Assembly (NCBI GenBank): GCA_949741215.1
Contig: CATJLA010000117.1
Span: 31,768-95,767 of the forward strand
Source: an uncultured Oscillospiraceae bacterium
GTDB taxonomy: Bacteria; Bacillota; Clostridia; Oscillospirales; Ruminococcaceae
Reading direction: 5' to 3'
Length of the DNA: 64,000 nucleotides
Positions 9,229-54,666 of this stretch are shown piece by piece. Numbering within the stretch: position 1 is the first letter of the stretch; every line of letters begins with the position of its first letter. A program made the position numbers and the translations under genes. The notes beneath the pieces were generated by a model. That model worked only from the letters and a program-made list of their open reading frames with translations, was not told where the DNA came from and made no database searches.

Positions 9229-9996
9229 TTATTCCGCCGGCACGCCGTTTTTTTGCAGAAAGCTCAGGCTTTCGGCCATACAGAGAAATGCGTCCTTGGA
9301 CCAGCTTTCCTGTTCTGCAAAAATCCATTTTACACCCGTTTCCTTACATCCCCGCAGAGAAGGCCCCCAGTCGATGACGCCTTGGCCCACCGGAACCAAC
9401 TGCTCCTCTCCCCTGTGATTGACACAGTAATCCTTAAAATGGACAAACTCAATCCGCCCCTGATACCGGTGCAGCCATTCCTCCGGGTTCAGCCCTGCCT
9501 TGATCAGATGATACAAATCCAGCCCCAGCTGAAAATTTTCCGGCGTATGCTCCATTATCATTTCTACCGCTGTTTTTCCATGAAACCGGCGGTACTCCTG
9601 TACCCTGGGGTGAAAAGACACAACCTTGCCGGCTGCTTCCATCCGGGCGGAAAAGCCGGTAAGCTCCTCTGCAAAGGCAAGGCACCCCTCTGCTGAAAGA
9701 AACCGCTCCGGAACCCCGCTGACACACACATTCCTGCTGCCGCAAAGCTTATGCAGCTGCAGTGTATCCTCCAGATGCTCCAGTACCGCCTGATAGTAAT
9801 CCTGTGTGGAAACGCTGACAAGTCCTGCCTTTTTTAACGCTTCTGCTATCGTTTCCGGCGGAATTTCCGGGTTAATCCACTGCAGCTGGACAATCCGGTA
9901 CCCAATGTCCCGGAGCTTGCAGAAGGTCTCCTCCACCTGCTCGGGCGTTTGCAGATACGCCTTTAAGCTGGAAACCTGCGCTCCTGCTTTAATCAT
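9229..9996 (-). CDS. Sugar phosphate isomerase/epimerase-like TIM-barrel protein
   Basis: 255-residue member of the xylose isomerase-like TIM-barrel superfamily (AP endonuclease family 2 fold). ATG 9996 follows AGGAGG by 7 nt. Metal-site type residues are visible in strand order: FHPRVQEY, LGLDLYHLIKAG, VHFKDY and the C-terminal FAEQES. Substrate is unknown; relatives act on inositol derivatives, keto-sugars or hydroxypyruvate. It has its own promoter (10164-10192), and the leader contains a copy of the 70-bp repeat. Confidence 0.85.
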   Translation of the reverse strand: MIKAGAQVSSLKAYLQTPEQVEETFCKLRDIGYRIVQLQWINPEIPPETIAEALKKAGLVSVSTQDYYQAVLEHLEDTLQLHKLCGSRNVCVSGVPERFLSAEGCLAFAEELTGFSARMEAAGKVVSFHPRVQEYRRFHGKTAVEMIMEHTPENFQLGLDLYHLIKAGLNPEEWLHRYQGRIEFVHFKDYCVNHRGEEQLVPVGQGVIDWGPSLRGCKETGVKWIFAEQESWSKDAFLCMAESLSFLQKNGVPAE

Positions 9997-10014: not shown

Positions 10015-10085
10015 AAGTAAAAGGGAATAGTGAATAGTGAAGAAGGGAGGTGTCCCTGCGGGACGGATTGAAATTGCAATTTTTT
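10015..10085 (+). repeat. ~70-bp dispersed hairpin repeat, copy A
   Basis: Contains GAATAGTGAATAGTGAAGAA, a hairpin around TGTCCCTGCGGGACG, then GATTGAAATTGC. Same organisation as copies at 39030-39103 (-), 41166-41235 (+) and 47313-47382 (-). Lies in the leader of the 9229-9996 gene, opposite in orientation. Confidence 0.85.
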
Positions 10086-26976: not shown

Positions 26977-26999
26977 CTGTTCCTGCAATTTTGATTGGA

Positions 27000-27136
27000 A
27001 TGTTGCTGCAAATTTTTTCGTCATAAGGTTTTGAAACAGCTCTACTTCTGTATGAAAAAACTATGCTTTTTTAGGCTTTGGCCGTGCTGCGCACATGGCC
27101 AAAAACCCTCTCCGGTGGCAGCGCAAAAAGAACAAT
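27000..27136. other. Non-coding gap between murD promoter and the parS site
   Basis: No gene seen. Holds a hairpin, TTTGGCC with GGCCAAA and inner GTGC/GCAC (27075-27107), without a clear T-run. Confidence 0.45.
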
Positions 27137-27152
27137 TGTTTCACGTGAAACA
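27137..27152. other. parS: parS site (ParB/Spo0J binding palindrome)
   Basis: TGTTTCACGTGAAACA, identical to the 16-bp Bacillus subtilis parS consensus. Intergenic, 116 bp after the topoisomerase A-subunit stop codon. Spo0J/ParB loads here and recruits SMC for chromosome segregation. Confidence 0.93.
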
Positions 27153-39017: not shown

Positions 39018-39029
39018 GCCGGTACCAAG

Positions 39030-39103
39030 CCAATATCAAAATCGCTCCCGCAAGGGAGGGTTCCGCCACTATTCACTATTCACTCTTACCTATTACTTAT
39101 TTT
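39030..39103 (-). repeat. ~70-bp dispersed hairpin repeat, copy C
   Basis: Minus strand: AAGTAA stop region, GAGTGAATAGTGAATAGTGG, hairpin CCCTCCC-TTGC-GGGAG, GCGATTTTGATATTG. It overlaps the last codons of gdpP, so the repeat supplies the gdpP stop codon. Confidence 0.85.
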
Positions 39104-41057
39104 TCTGGTCATAGTACTCATCAATAGCCTCCAGCAAAGCCTGCCTGGCTTCCTCATAGGCCACGCCATTCATCTGAGCGCCGGCCATAGTCATGTGGCC
39201 GCCGCCCCCCAGCTTCTCCATAATAATCTGGACGTTTATCCCGCCCAAGCTTCTGGCCGAGAAGGAAACGCCTCCCTCATATTCGTAAAGCACAAAAGAG
39301 GCATCCACGTCACTGATAGACAAAAGCTCATCCGCGGCCTGGGGCGCCACCAGCTTGATGCTGGTTAACGCTTCCGCTGTACCCGCAATAGCGCAGTGCC
39401 GGTACACCTCTGCGGAGGTCATAATTTTGGTACGGTTCTGGTACTCCTCCATGCTGGAGGCAAACAGCCGCTTTACCTCTACCGTATCTGCCCCCAGCCG
39501 CCGGAGGTAAGCCGCCGCCTCAAAGGTTCTTACCCCGGTACGCATGACGAAGTTCTTGGTATCCAGCATAATGCCTGCCAGCAAGGCCTCTGCTTCCGGG
39601 CGGCCTACACGGCGCTTTTCCCCAAAATACTGCAGCAGCTCCGCTACCATCTCCGAGCAGGAGGAGGCAAAAGGCTCATGGTAAAAAATCATGGCGTTGT
39701 CAATAAAATTCACCATCTTCCGGTGGTGGTCGATTACCGCAACGTTTTTACAGGCCCGGTACAGATCCTCCGACTCCACAAAATGCTTTAGGTGGGTATC
39801 CACTACAATCAACAGCGTTTTAGGGCCAATTTGAGGCATCAGATCCTCCGGATTGCAGAAAGCATCATCATATCCCTGTTGGCAAAGCTGCTCAAATAAG
39901 GGGGAAACCAAATGCTTCTGCCGGTCAATGGCAATCCAAGCAGGCTTTCCGAAGGACTTAATCGCCTTCAAAAGCCCCACAGCGGAGCCAAAGCAGTCCA
40001 AATCCGCAAACTTGTGGCCCATCAATATGACGTTATCGTTGTTTTGTATCAGCTCAATCAAAGCGGAGGCCATAATCCTGGTTTTTACCTTGGTGCGCTT
40101 TTCCACCCCTTTAGCCACCCCGCCAAAGAACTCATAGCCGTTCCGGGTTTTTACCGCCGCCTGATCGCCGCCGCGGCCCAGGGCCATATCCAGCGCCTGG
40201 CGGGCCATATGCTCCGCTTCCTGCAAGGAGGGGGCGTCCAACCCCAGGCCGATGGAAAGGGTAGCCGGCATTTTCTCATTAGGGCTGATCTCACGCACTT
40301 CGTCCAGAATATGGAACCGGTTTTGAATCATCTGATCCAAATGCCGTTTTTCCAGCACACAAACATACCGGTCCCGCTCCATTTTATACACAAAGCCCTC
40401 AAAGCTGGAAAAATACCGCTTTACGGCAGTTTCCACCTTAGCCAGCACCTGGGAGCGGTCGCTTTCCGGCAGGCTTTGGGTAAGCTCCTCATAGTTATCC
40501 AGCAGAATAATGGCCACCGAGGGCCGTGTAAGGTGATACTCCCGAGCAAAGCGCTTTAACAGGGTATCCTCAATAAAATAAAACACCTTCATAGGACGTT
40601 CGTGCTCTAAATTACTGCTGTAGTAAACGGTATATTCCCGGTTTTCCCGCACCAAGCTCACGCCGTCCTTTGGGCAGGGCTTCTGGTGGTCGATTCCGGC
40701 AATTTCCGCAAGGTTTATCCCGTAGCTGTCGATCTGGGCCAGCACTTCGTCCCGAAAAAGCTCATTATACCAAAGGATATCCCCATCCTCCTGGGTAACC
40801 ACCACCGGCAGCGGAATGGAGGTAAGCACCCCCCGCTGCGTATCAGAAAGCAGCTCGCCCATTTGGGTAAGCACCCGGTGCATGGTTTTTTTGGAGTTGC
40901 GCATATCAATCAGTATGTAGATCAAAGCAGCCAGCAGCAAAGCGGCCTCCAGATAAAAAAGCCGACGATCCATAAACCAACTGACAGCAGTCATCCCCAC
41001 ACACAGCACCAGCAGAACAACCAGCGACGGAGTAAACAGATTGATCCGTTTTTTCAC
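39093..41057 (-). CDS. gdpP: Cyclic-di-AMP phosphodiesterase GdpP (DHH/DHHA1)
   Basis: 654-residue membrane enzyme that degrades c-di-AMP, setting turgor and wall homeostasis. Two N-terminal TM helices (about 10-28 and 33-50), a PAS-like domain, a degenerate GGDEF (about 170-300), then the DHH domain with MGHKFADLDCFGSA, VDTH, DHHRK, and DHHA1 ending in GGGGHMTMAGAQ. The start is GTG 41057 with AGGAGG 6 nt upstream. Its promoter lies within a perfect inverted repeat. The 3' end overlaps a dispersed repeat copy. Confidence 0.95.
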   Translation of the reverse strand: MKKRINLFTPSLVVLLVLCVGMTAVSWFMDRRLFYLEAALLLAALIYILIDMRNSKKTMHRVLTQMGELLSDTQRGVLTSIPLPVVVTQEDGDILWYNELFRDEVLAQIDSYGINLAEIAGIDHQKPCPKDGVSLVRENREYTVYYSSNLEHERPMKVFYFIEDTLLKRFAREYHLTRPSVAIILLDNYEELTQSLPESDRSQVLAKVETAVKRYFSSFEGFVYKMERDRYVCVLEKRHLDQMIQNRFHILDEVREISPNEKMPATLSIGLGLDAPSLQEAEHMARQALDMALGRGGDQAAVKTRNGYEFFGGVAKGVEKRTKVKTRIMASALIELIQNNDNVILMGHKFADLDCFGSAVGLLKAIKSFGKPAWIAIDRQKHLVSPLFEQLCQQGYDDAFCNPEDLMPQIGPKTLLIVVDTHLKHFVESEDLYRACKNVAVIDHHRKMVNFIDNAMIFYHEPFASSCSEMVAELLQYFGEKRRVGRPEAEALLAGIMLDTKNFVMRTGVRTFEAAAYLRRLGADTVEVKRLFASSMEEYQNRTKIMTSAEVYRHCAIAGTAEALTSIKLVAPQAADELLSISDVDASFVLYEYEGGVSFSARSLGGINVQIIMEKLGGGGHMTMAGAQMNGVAYEEARQALLEAIDEYYDQKNK

Positions 41058-41105: not shown

Positions 41106-41165
41106 CTTAGTACCATAATAATAAAGATTGGTGGAAAAGTCAATCTTTATTATTATGGTACTAAG
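41106..41165. repeat. Perfect 25-bp inverted repeat upstream of gdpP
   Basis: Arm 41106-41130 is the exact reverse complement of 41141-41165, with a 10-nt spacer. The arms begin CTTAGTACCATAATAATAAA. No T-run follows on either strand. It ends exactly where repeat copy B (41166) begins. Confidence 0.95.
41115..41143 (-). promoter_or_regulatory. Promoter of gdpP inside the inverted repeat
   Basis: Minus strand TTGACT (41138-41143), 17-bp spacer, TATTAT (41115-41120). By symmetry a weaker pair TTGGTG-17-TATTAT faces the plus strand. Confidence 0.65.
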
Positions 41166-41235
41166 AAAGTAAAAAGTAATAGCGAATAGTGAATAGTGGC
41201 GGAACCCTCCCTTTCGGGAGCGATTGAATGTTGCC
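41166..41235 (+). repeat. ~70-bp dispersed hairpin repeat, copy B
   Basis: Contains AAGTAAAAAGTAATAG, GAATAGTGAATAGTGG, hairpin CCCTCCC-TTTC-GGGAG, CGATTGAATGTTGCC. Between rnj and gdpP. Confidence 0.85.
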
Positions 41236-41356
41236 AAGAAAATTTTTAGGCGGCAGCTTGGTCGAAATAGCGTTTCCACTTCCGCTTCCGCTTATATTTT
41301 TTTACATATACAAAAGAGGAAGCCTGTGCGGTTTCCCCTTTTCTCTGTTTCTGTGC

Positions 41357-43387
41357 TTAAATTTGCTGGATTACCGGCAGAATCATTGGGCTTCTTTTGG
41401 TCTTGTTGTAAAAATAGTCCGAAAGCTCATCCCGAATCCGGGTTTTCATGCCGCTCCACTCCCGCATACCGCCGTCAGAACACTCCTCAATCACATCCCG
41501 GCAGATTTTTCTCGCCTCCGCCATCATGGTTTCTGCTTCCCGTACATACACAAACCCGCGGGAAACTAAGTCCGGCCCCGCTACAATAGCGCCGCTTTCC
41601 GTTTCCATAGCAACTACCGCTACAATCAATCCGTCCTGAGCCAGGTGCTTCCGGTCCCGCAGCACGATGCTGCCTACATCGCCAACCCCAAGGCCATCCA
41701 CCAGAACCCGCCCCGCAGGTACCGTCCCGGTAAATTTCATCTCCTCGCCGTTGGTTTCCAGAACCTGGCCAATGTCCCCAATAAAAATATTTTCCTTGGG
41801 AATGCCCAGAGAGCTTGCCAGCCCGGCATGCTTTTTCAGCTGCTTATACTCACCATGCACCGGCATAAAAAACTTGGGCCGGGTAAGTCCCAGCATCAGC
41901 CGCAGCTCGTCTTGGCAGGCATGGCCGGAAACATGCACCTCGTACATCTTCTCGTAAATTACCTCGGCGCCCAGCTTCATCAGCTCGTTGACGACTCTGC
42001 CTACCGTTTTCTCGTTGCCCGGAATAGGATTTGCGGAAATGATAATAAAATCGTTGGGTGTAATAGAAATTTTCCGGTGATCCCCCATAGCCATCCGGCT
42101 CAAGGCGGACATCGGCTCCCCCTGGCTGCCGGTGGTAATCAGCACAATCTGATTATCAGGGTAACGGCCCACCATATCAATGTCAATCAGCAGCCCGTCC
42201 GGCACATGAAGATAAGAAAGCTCCAGCGCTTTGGTCACCGCATTGATCATACTCCTGCCGGAAACCGCAACCTTCCGCCCATACTTCTGAGCACAGCTGA
42301 TCACCTGCTGGATACGATGAATATTGGAAGCAAACGTTGCCACCAAAATCCGCTTGTTTTGGGCCTGATTAAACAGATTATCAAAAGATTCCCCCACCTT
42401 GCGCTCACTCATGGTGCTGCCGGGCTTCTCAGCGTTGGTGGAATCAGCCAGCAGCGCAAGCACCCCCTGGCTGCCCAGCTCGCCAAAACGGGCCAGGTCA
42501 ATAATGTCGCCCTCAATAGGGGAATAATCAATTTTAAAGTCACCGGTCTGCACAATCACGCCTGCAGGAGTATGAATCGCCATGGCGCAGGCATCAGGGA
42601 TCGAATGGTTCACTCGAATAAACTCCACCGACATGCAGCCCATCTGCACTACGTCCCCGGGTTTTGTACAAATCAGCTTTGCTTTATTCAGCAGGTTATG
42701 CTCCTTCAGTTTGCCTTCCACCAGCCCAAGGGTAAGCCGGGTGCCGTAAACCGGAACGTCCAAAAGCTTAAGCAGGTAGGGCAACGCGCCAATATGATCC
42801 TCATGGCCGTGGGTAAGCACCACGCCGCGGATTTTCTCCCGGTTACGCTCCACATAGGTAAAGTCCGGGATCACCAGGTCAACGCCCAGCATCTCATCGT
42901 CGGGGAAAGCAAGCCCGCAGTCCACCAAAAACATATCTCCGCCGCACTCATACAGAGTCATATTTTTGCCGATCTCATTCAACCCACCCAAAGGGATAAT
43001 TCTCACCGGCACTTTATTTTTAGGCTGCTTCGCAGTGCTTCTCCCACGGGGGGAGGCCGTCTTCTGCCATTCCTTAGGTTTTTGTTCTTTAATTTTAGGC
43101 TCAGCCTCTGTTTTGGCCGCTGCTTTGGGGGACGAAGCGGTCTTACTGTTTTTCTGCCCCCTCCTCTGTCCTCTGCTGTTGGACGTAACAGCAGGCGTTT
43201 GTTCAGCGGCCTGGGCCTGAGGCTGCTGCTTTGTATTTTCCTGCGCTGCCTGAGGGGCAGCCTTCTGTTTTGTTTGGGGATTTCTCCTGCCAGGGCGGCG
43301 GCCTCTTGGCTTACGGCTCAAAGACCCATCCTGTGCCTGGCTGTTGGCATCCTGCCGCTCCGCTGTCTTATTCTCATCTTGTGTCAC
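41357..43387 (-). CDS. rnj: Ribonuclease J
   Basis: 676-residue RNase of the metallo-beta-lactamase/beta-CASP family with endo- and 5'-exonuclease activity in mRNA decay. The start is GTG 43387, since GGAGG lies 8 nt upstream; an ATG 15 nt earlier contains that site. Residues 1 to about 120 are a Lys/Arg/Gln/Pro/Ala-rich disordered extension not found in Bacillus RNase J1. Then GGLNEIGKNM, the zinc motif LTHGHEDHIGA, NHSIPDACA, TGDFKID, DSTNAEKPG, and the beta-CASP SGRSM and HVSGHACQDEL with MPVHGEY. Confidence 0.95.
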   Translation of the reverse strand: MTQDENKTAERQDANSQAQDGSLSRKPRGRRPGRRNPQTKQKAAPQAAQENTKQQPQAQAAEQTPAVTSNSRGQRRGQKNSKTASSPKAAAKTEAEPKIKEQKPKEWQKTASPRGRSTAKQPKNKVPVRIIPLGGLNEIGKNMTLYECGGDMFLVDCGLAFPDDEMLGVDLVIPDFTYVERNREKIRGVVLTHGHEDHIGALPYLLKLLDVPVYGTRLTLGLVEGKLKEHNLLNKAKLICTKPGDVVQMGCMSVEFIRVNHSIPDACAMAIHTPAGVIVQTGDFKIDYSPIEGDIIDLARFGELGSQGVLALLADSTNAEKPGSTMSERKVGESFDNLFNQAQNKRILVATFASNIHRIQQVISCAQKYGRKVAVSGRSMINAVTKALELSYLHVPDGLLIDIDMVGRYPDNQIVLITTGSQGEPMSALSRMAMGDHRKISITPNDFIIISANPIPGNEKTVGRVVNELMKLGAEVIYEKMYEVHVSGHACQDELRLMLGLTRPKFFMPVHGEYKQLKKHAGLASSLGIPKENIFIGDIGQVLETNGEEMKFTGTVPAGRVLVDGLGVGDVGSIVLRDRKHLAQDGLIVAVVAMETESGAIVAGPDLVSRGFVYVREAETMMAEARKICRDVIEECSDGGMREWSGMKTRIRDELSDYFYNKTKRSPMILPVIQQI

Positions 43388-43420
43388 AATATTTACCTCC
43401 ATACAATTGTCTCTTTTCAC

Positions 43421-43449
43421 ATTATCAAAAAGCGGCTTACCCTGTACAA
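43421..43449 (-). promoter_or_regulatory. Promoter of rnj
   Basis: Minus strand TTGTAC (43444-43449), 17-bp spacer, GATAAT (43421-43426), 30-35 bp before the GTG. Confidence 0.5.
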
Positions 43450-43638
43450 ACAAAGCCTGCAGTTCCAAGGCTTTACAGGGAACAGCTTTATTTCGTCAAT
43501 CTGTTCTGTTATTCCGTAAATCTTCCAAATTTCATATCATTTCGTGCATCTTATCCAAGCTCAGGCACATCAACCTTTTGTCAGCAATCCTGGGGCCAGA
43601 ATATTCCGCCCTTTGCAAAAAACAGCTAAAGCCTAAAA

Positions 43639-47109: not shown

Positions 47110-47312
47110 ATTTTACCGCCTCCTATTTTCTCTAAAAGCCCAAAAAGGATTTTTTTCGACCCTCCATTTGCTGTACAATTTGAAAGTGCGCAGTCTTTTT
47201 AACCCGTCCGCAAGGATGTCTCCCCCTGACCCCTCAGCTTACCATCCACTGCAAATAATTTTCAAGGAAAAGCAGATCTATTCCAAAACACTATAACGAA
47301 AAAAATCCACAG

Positions 47313-47382
47313 CAACATTTCAATCGTTCCTGCAAGGAACGTACCTCCACTATTTACTATTCACTCTTACTTTTTACTTAAA
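47313..47382 (-). repeat. ~70-bp dispersed hairpin repeat, copy D
   Basis: Minus strand: AAGTAAAAAGTAAGAG, GAATAGTAAATAGTGG, hairpin GTTCC-TTGCA-GGAAC, GATTGAAATGTTGC. The hairpin stem differs from the other copies but still pairs. Confidence 0.85.
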
Positions 47383-53910: not shown

Positions 53911-53926
53911 TGTTTCACGTGAAACA
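53911..53926. other. parS: parS site (second copy)
   Basis: TGTTTCACGTGAAACA again, exact; the flanking bases extend the palindrome by three on each side (ATT/AAT). Intergenic, right after the glgA terminator. Confidence 0.93.
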
Positions 53927-54026: not shown

Positions 54027-54119
54027 TATGGGCATTGCCACACAGTCATTAACTGCGCAAATGCCCATAAAAAGAACTCCCCTCCAGCCCGAAACTGCGG
54101 ACTAAGGGGAGTTCTTTTT
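54027..54119 (-). terminator. Terminator of the 54118-54666 gene, with a second adjacent stem
   Basis: A perfect 15-bp stem (54069-54083 with 54105-54119) bounded by A and T runs works in both directions. Beside it TATGGGCATT pairs with AATGCCCATA (54027-54036 with 54060-54069). The terminator arm contains the gene's stop codon. Confidence 0.9.
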
Positions 54120-54666
54120 ATACCTTAAGAGAGCTTACGGGATCTCCGCTTTCCAGCTCCTTGATGGTAAAGGTGCTATCCTCATAAATCATATAGCTGT
54201 GGCAGCTGCCCCCTTTCGGGATCGCCAAAGAGCCGGGATTCAGGTATAAAACCCCGCCCGGCAGCTGCTCCATCACCTGCAAATGGGTGTGCCCATGCAG
54301 CAAAATGGCCCCTGCACCTAAAGGCGGCAGTGCGTCCTGATGATAAATGTGGCCATGGGTGGCAAACACAGTTCGGCCCCCAAGCTCCAGCACCATAGAG
54401 TCTGCCATAATAGGGAACTCCAGCACCATTTGATCCACCTCGGCGTCACAGTTGCCCCGCACACAAAAGATTTTTTCCTTGAGCCTGTTCAGCAGGGGGA
54501 TCACCTCCTTGGGGTTATACTCTTTGGGCAGATCGTTCCGAGGGCCGTGATAAAGCAGATCCCCCAACAGCAGCAGTTTGTCAGCCTGCTCCTGAAAAAA
54601 CGCCCGCTCCATCTCCTTCGCATAGTAAAAAGAACCATGCAGATCAGAGGCAATCATCCATTTCAT
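54118..54666 (-). CDS. YfcE-type metallophosphodiesterase
   Basis: 182 residues, calcineurin-fold phosphoesterase of the YfcE/MJ0936 group. Metal ligands in order: D8/H10 in IASDLHGS, GDLLYHG, RGNCDAE, ATHGHIY and LHGHTHL. Physiological substrate unknown; such enzymes act on phosphodiesters in vitro. ATG 54666 (AAGGA). Follows csoR on the same strand by 69 bp, with a motif copy between. Confidence 0.9.
   Translation of the reverse strand: MKWMIASDLHGSFYYAKEMERAFFQEQADKLLLLGDLLYHGPRNDLPKEYNPKEVIPLLNRLKEKIFCVRGNCDAEVDQMVLEFPIMADSMVLELGGRTVFATHGHIYHQDALPPLGAGAILLHGHTHLQVMEQLPGGVLYLNPGSLAIPKGGSCHSYMIYEDSTFTIKELESGDPVSSLKV

Follow-up and report, generated by a model that had tools for sequence, protein, structure and literature searches.

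The DNA upstream of gdpP in this genome raises the question of whether a long perfect palindrome, placed over a promoter-like sequence, belongs to the control of that gene or is the footprint of a mobile repeat. In the window (the whole 64,000-nucleotide stretch of DNA analysed here), gdpP encodes a c-di-AMP phosphodiesterase of 654 amino acids with a GTG start and GGDEF_GdpP, DHH and DHHA1 domains (positions 39093–41057, minus strand). The gene for ribosomal protein L9 lies downstream, and rnj, the gene for RNase J (41357–43468, minus strand), is the upstream neighbour here and in most relatives. Genome-wide counts refer to 1.73 Mb of the source genome, taken in stretches that are partly N, from an assembly of 192 contigs that is 88% complete.

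A perfect palindrome in the rnj–gdpP spacer

The palindrome consists of a left arm (41106–41130), a 10-nt spacer, GTGGAAAAGT (41131–41140), and a right arm (41141–41165). The arms are complementary at 25 of 25 positions, in agreement with an earlier, sequence-only reading of the window. Perfect stems of this kind are expected 1 × 10−9 to 4 × 10−7 times per 64 kb, depending on composition, and none of the other perfect hairpins in the 1.73 Mb examined is as long. Its arms have a G+C content of 24%, and the stem has a calculated folding energy of −31.9 kcal/mol as RNA and −21.7 kcal/mol as DNA. A DNA search found no second copy of the sequence in its own genome, matches in 60 relatives were at chance level with nothing convincing among them, and viral contigs searched with the palindrome arm and with the pattern of the adjoining repeat (see below) matched neither.

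The palindrome resembles an intrinsic terminator in being a strong hairpin in an intergenic spacer, but differs from one in that no T-run is present on either side or strand, as had been noted before, and that no plus-strand gene ends there; the missing T-run rules out this reading. A candidate rnj terminator at 41318–41336 was also rejected: the scan placed it on the plus strand alone, and inspection showed a mismatch in its stem on the rnj strand. Searched against Rfam at gathering level, the whole window yielded one tRNA and nothing else. MicroRNA precursor models match the palindrome at a loose Rfam threshold, below their own cut-offs, as they would any long hairpin. A second perfect hairpin in the window, ATAAAAAGAACTCCCCT (54067–54121), has 17-bp arms around a 21-nt loop and may terminate transcription in both directions.

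On the minus strand, the palindrome contains the best promoter-like match in the rnj–gdpP spacer, formed by TTGACT (41143–41138) and TATTAT (41120–41115) with a spacing of 17 nt and 10 of 12 matches. The TTG of the −35-like box falls within the right arm and its ACT within the 10-nt spacer, and the −10-like box lies within the left arm. When the 299-nt rnj–gdpP spacer was Markov-shuffled, 3.7% of the versions reached 10/12 matches. The earlier claim that the gdpP promoter lies in the palindrome is borne out for the pair of boxes; at P ~0.04 the promoter itself is not established, and we regard it as plausible and the match as suggestive. If the pair is used, gdpP would have its own transcription start ~50 nt before the GTG, and the hairpin would act only as DNA, outside the mRNA. 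Should transcription from rnj still run into gdpP, the message would include a 25-bp stem that lies 48 nt ahead of the start codon, with a probable effect on stability or processing rather than on regulator binding.

The gdpP locus in related bacteria

We compared the region with gdpP homologues (39–55% identical) from Oscillospirales genomes, all outside the source genus, among which 50 loci of other Oscillospirales reach upstream of the gene. A comparable palindrome was found upstream of gdpP at none of the 50, and absence from all relatives was half of what the sequence-only reading had named as evidence against itself. In relatives, perfect hairpins within 250 nt of gdpP reach no more than 13 bp. 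At loci with an identified rnj, that gene usually lies next upstream, mostly with a gap of 26–110 nt, compared with ~300 nt here. Gaps this short suggest that gdpP may be transcribed from rnj in those relatives. The additional spacer DNA in the source genome consists of the palindrome and a copy of a dispersed repeat (41167–41273). As the relatives have no palindrome and shorter gaps, the palindrome is part of the extra DNA of the source lineage rather than of a conserved gdpP control region.

A dispersed repeat adjoins the palindrome

The repeat copy next to the palindrome (~105 bp, plus strand; nhmmer E = 3.7 × 10−21) reads AAGTAAAAAGTAATAG...GAATAGTGAATAGTGG...GAAATAGC, and the shortened consensus of the family is AAGTAAAAAGTAATAGTGAATAGTGAATAGTGGAGGTACGCTCC..GGGAGCGATTGGAATGTTGC...GAAATAGC. 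The 1.73 Mb taken from the source genome contain 110 copies, half of them outside any long open frame compared with 8% of random points. An alignment of 46 copies places an internal hairpin, here CTCCC-TTTC-GGGAG (41207–41220, plus strand), which forms a perfect stem in 42 of them with many different sequences, so that the pairing is kept. The termini form a short imperfect inverted repeat (AAGTAAA/TTTACTT).

A second copy, incomplete at its 3′ end, lies at the 3′ end of gdpP (39024–39098, minus strand), and its first six bases, AAGTAA (39093–39098), supply the gene with its final Lys codon and its stop codon. At position 9859 of another stretch of the genome (L150), a further copy begins immediately downstream of a frame whose last six bases are AAGTAA. 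Other copies or fragments in the window are at 10015–10080 and 26983–27041 (plus strand) and 47276–47379 (minus strand).

The full ~105-bp repeat was not found outside its own genome among the relatives of the order that were searched; related GTGAATAGTG motifs are present in other families of the order. We found no known name for the repeat in the open literature and consider it undescribed. Its copies have no detectable target-site duplication, flank identity being no higher than in shuffles once the many borders tried are allowed for. The genome (88% complete in this assembly) has a single Y1 transposase match (PF01797), which is of the IS200 type and is interrupted by an in-frame TAG (C15:1627–1983, equivalent to L209); the 3-kb contig that bears it had no reported repeat copy. 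Reverse transcriptase (PF00078) had no match in the genome, and no enzyme mobilizing the repeat was identified there.

Hairpins at the 5′ border of the repeat

To describe the placement of hairpins, we took all perfect hairpins of 8 bp or more and tabulated how far the foot of each lies from the repeat border, using the 97 copies whose 5′ end is intact and 67 copies for the 3′ end. Such a hairpin ends within 2 nt of the 5′ border in 10 of the 97 copies and within 2 nt of the 3′ border in none of the 67. The gdpP palindrome is one of the ten, its foot lying 1 nt before the repeat. The next 98 nt upstream of the 5′ border hold 11 more hairpins; six of these are at 6–7 nt, parS palindromes accounting for all five at 6 nt.

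The ten border hairpins comprise the 25-bp gdpP stem, one of 23 bp, one of 15 bp and seven related stems of the GCGGAAG type (8–11 bp). The three long stems are unrelated in sequence; that of 23 bp (C103:10028–10081) stands just past the end of an apparent coding frame. With related stems pooled, the ten would represent four independent border events, compared with ~0.6 expected from the surrounding rate (P ~0.003). Of 14 GGAAG-type hairpins in the 1.73 Mb, nine have element-type sequence, and all nine adjoin a repeat copy, which indicates that the GCGGAAG-type hairpin travels with the repeat. At some loci of other Oscillospirales (L116, L119 and L120), a hairpin is likewise followed directly by a similar AAGTRA...GTGAATAGTG motif.

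Origin of the palindrome

The palindrome is probably the hairpin at the 5′ edge of a copy of the dispersed repeat, a non-coding and REP- or MITE-like sequence, that inserted into the rnj–gdpP spacer of the source lineage. A mobile-repeat footprint, rather than a conserved gdpP switch, is the most likely reading because the palindrome stands at the exact edge of a ~100-copy repeat and is missing from related bacteria; in addition, the position of the hairpin is fixed in a subset of copies and the spacer is enlarged. Of the three earlier proposals, the same results favour only a small insertion. This mobile-repeat account replaces a regulatory account of c-di-AMP control. If confirmed, it would mean that short repeats in Oscillospirales spread in a way that is guided by structure or creates it, and would show how repeats rewire operons, here by parting rnj from gdpP and supplying the gdpP stop codon.

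The hairpin may have come with the insertion or may have been present beforehand, and three origins can be envisaged. The repeat could have brought it along, as appears to be the case for the GCGGAAG-type hairpins; fold-back synthesis at the edge of the insertion could have copied the flank; or a pre-existing hairpin could have served as a structural landing site. For the unique 25-bp sequence, the second and third are likelier than the first. Fold-back copying predicts perfect arms of any sequence that end at the border, as seen. Several observations count against the footprint reading. Only about one-tenth of repeat copies have a border hairpin and the 25-bp sequence is single-copy, so that its being part of the element is uncertain here; neither a target-site duplication nor a mobilizing enzyme was found; and the promoter match is above chance, which a pure footprint would not need. 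It is conceivable, if doubtful, that the ~105-bp repeat is moved by a mechanism that acts through DNA hairpins at its 5′ edge, chromosomal parS included, by either recognizing or creating them, and in this way has gathered unrelated palindromes and helped to scatter parS.

Among the alternatives, the one that survives best, although we consider it unlikely, is that the neighbouring repeat played no part and that a quasi-palindrome at the gdpP promoter was perfected when replication switched template. This process, presented as an established source of mutation in bacterial quasi-palindromes (PMC7202029), would account for arms that are 100% identical in a sequence that is unique, but leaves unexplained why the foot of the hairpin is 1 nt from the repeat border and why 10 of 97 copies have the same placement. 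Somewhat less probable still is that the palindrome, whatever its origin, tunes gdpP as a structural switch, forming either a cruciform in the DNA or, in the mRNA leader, a 25-bp stem. The very stable A+T-rich stem over the best promoter-like match of the spacer would suit such a role; the lack of conservation in relatives and the unrelated hairpins at the same position beside other repeat copies argue against it.

We regard as highly improbable the earlier suggestion of an operator for a large dimeric gdpP regulator. A perfect dyad does overlap the putative −35 and −10 boxes, but the genome has no second site, none of the 50 examined gdpP loci keeps the palindrome and the repeat explains its position. 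Typical operators need shorter arms, and 25 bp of perfect match exceeds that need. An artefact of a fragmented and probably metagenome-derived genome is the least credible explanation. The evidence does come from a single assembly (192 contigs, 88% complete), but the palindrome is in the middle of a 95.8-kb contig, its 10-nt loop is clean and other repeat copies have similar perfect hairpins at the same position.

Comparison with known repeat families

The repeat shares features with several known systems. Like REP/REPIN sequences, repetitive extragenic palindromes that RAYT transposases mobilize (PMC3116915), it has ~100 short dispersed copies that are enriched outside long open frames, and its hairpins keep pairing while their sequence varies. 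Unlike them, it is longer (~105 bp) and asymmetric, with an optional hairpin at one end only; its 5′-edge hairpins vary in sequence and, on inspection, have no GTAG/CGTC tag, and the sole Y1 transposase match in this 88% complete assembly is interrupted and does not adjoin a repeat copy. As in miniature elements of the MITE type (PMC10969869), the sequence is non-coding, ~100 bp long and of high copy number; its terminal inverted repeat (AAGTAAA...TTTACTT) is at best weak, being short and imperfect, and there is no detected target-site duplication or identified parent insertion sequence. Group IIC introns insert beside a DNA stem-loop (PMC10190682), which may be compared with the minority of repeat copies (10/97) whose 5′ border comes immediately after a hairpin of no set sequence. 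The resemblance is one of placement only: the repeat is 105 bp, the genome has no reverse transcriptase match and most copies are hairpin-less. Given the missing group II reverse transcriptase, a lone interrupted Y1 transposase away from the copies and no target-site duplication, it is not justified to file the repeat as REP, MITE or intron-derived.

Dispersed parS sites

The genome also has an unusual inventory of parS sites. The parS 16-mer TGTTTCACGTGAAACA has 87 exact sites in the source genome compared with 0–4 in 60 relatives; one to 20 parS sites per chromosome have been reported (PMC10197239). The sites are on most contigs, two of them in the window (27137–27152 and 53911–53926), and they often have the context AGAACAATTGTTTCACGTGAAACATTTT. 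The stretches taken (1.73 Mb, partly N) hold 72 exact sites and seven that differ by one or two bases, and GTTTCACGTGAAAC outnumbers the next most frequent perfect 14-bp palindrome ninefold. The pattern looks like dispersed parS, possibly with a Noc-like use. The Noc site consensus is ATTTCCCGGGAAAT, and no exact match to it was found in the source genome. One contig (C71) has two ParB-family genes, one of which is Noc-like by its position beside mnmG–rsmG. Around parA–parB on the same contig (L139:13029–15768), several parS palindromes lie 8–10 nt 5′ or 15–18 nt 3′ of repeat copies, and some of the copies in this region are near-tandem, with an extra inserted hairpin.
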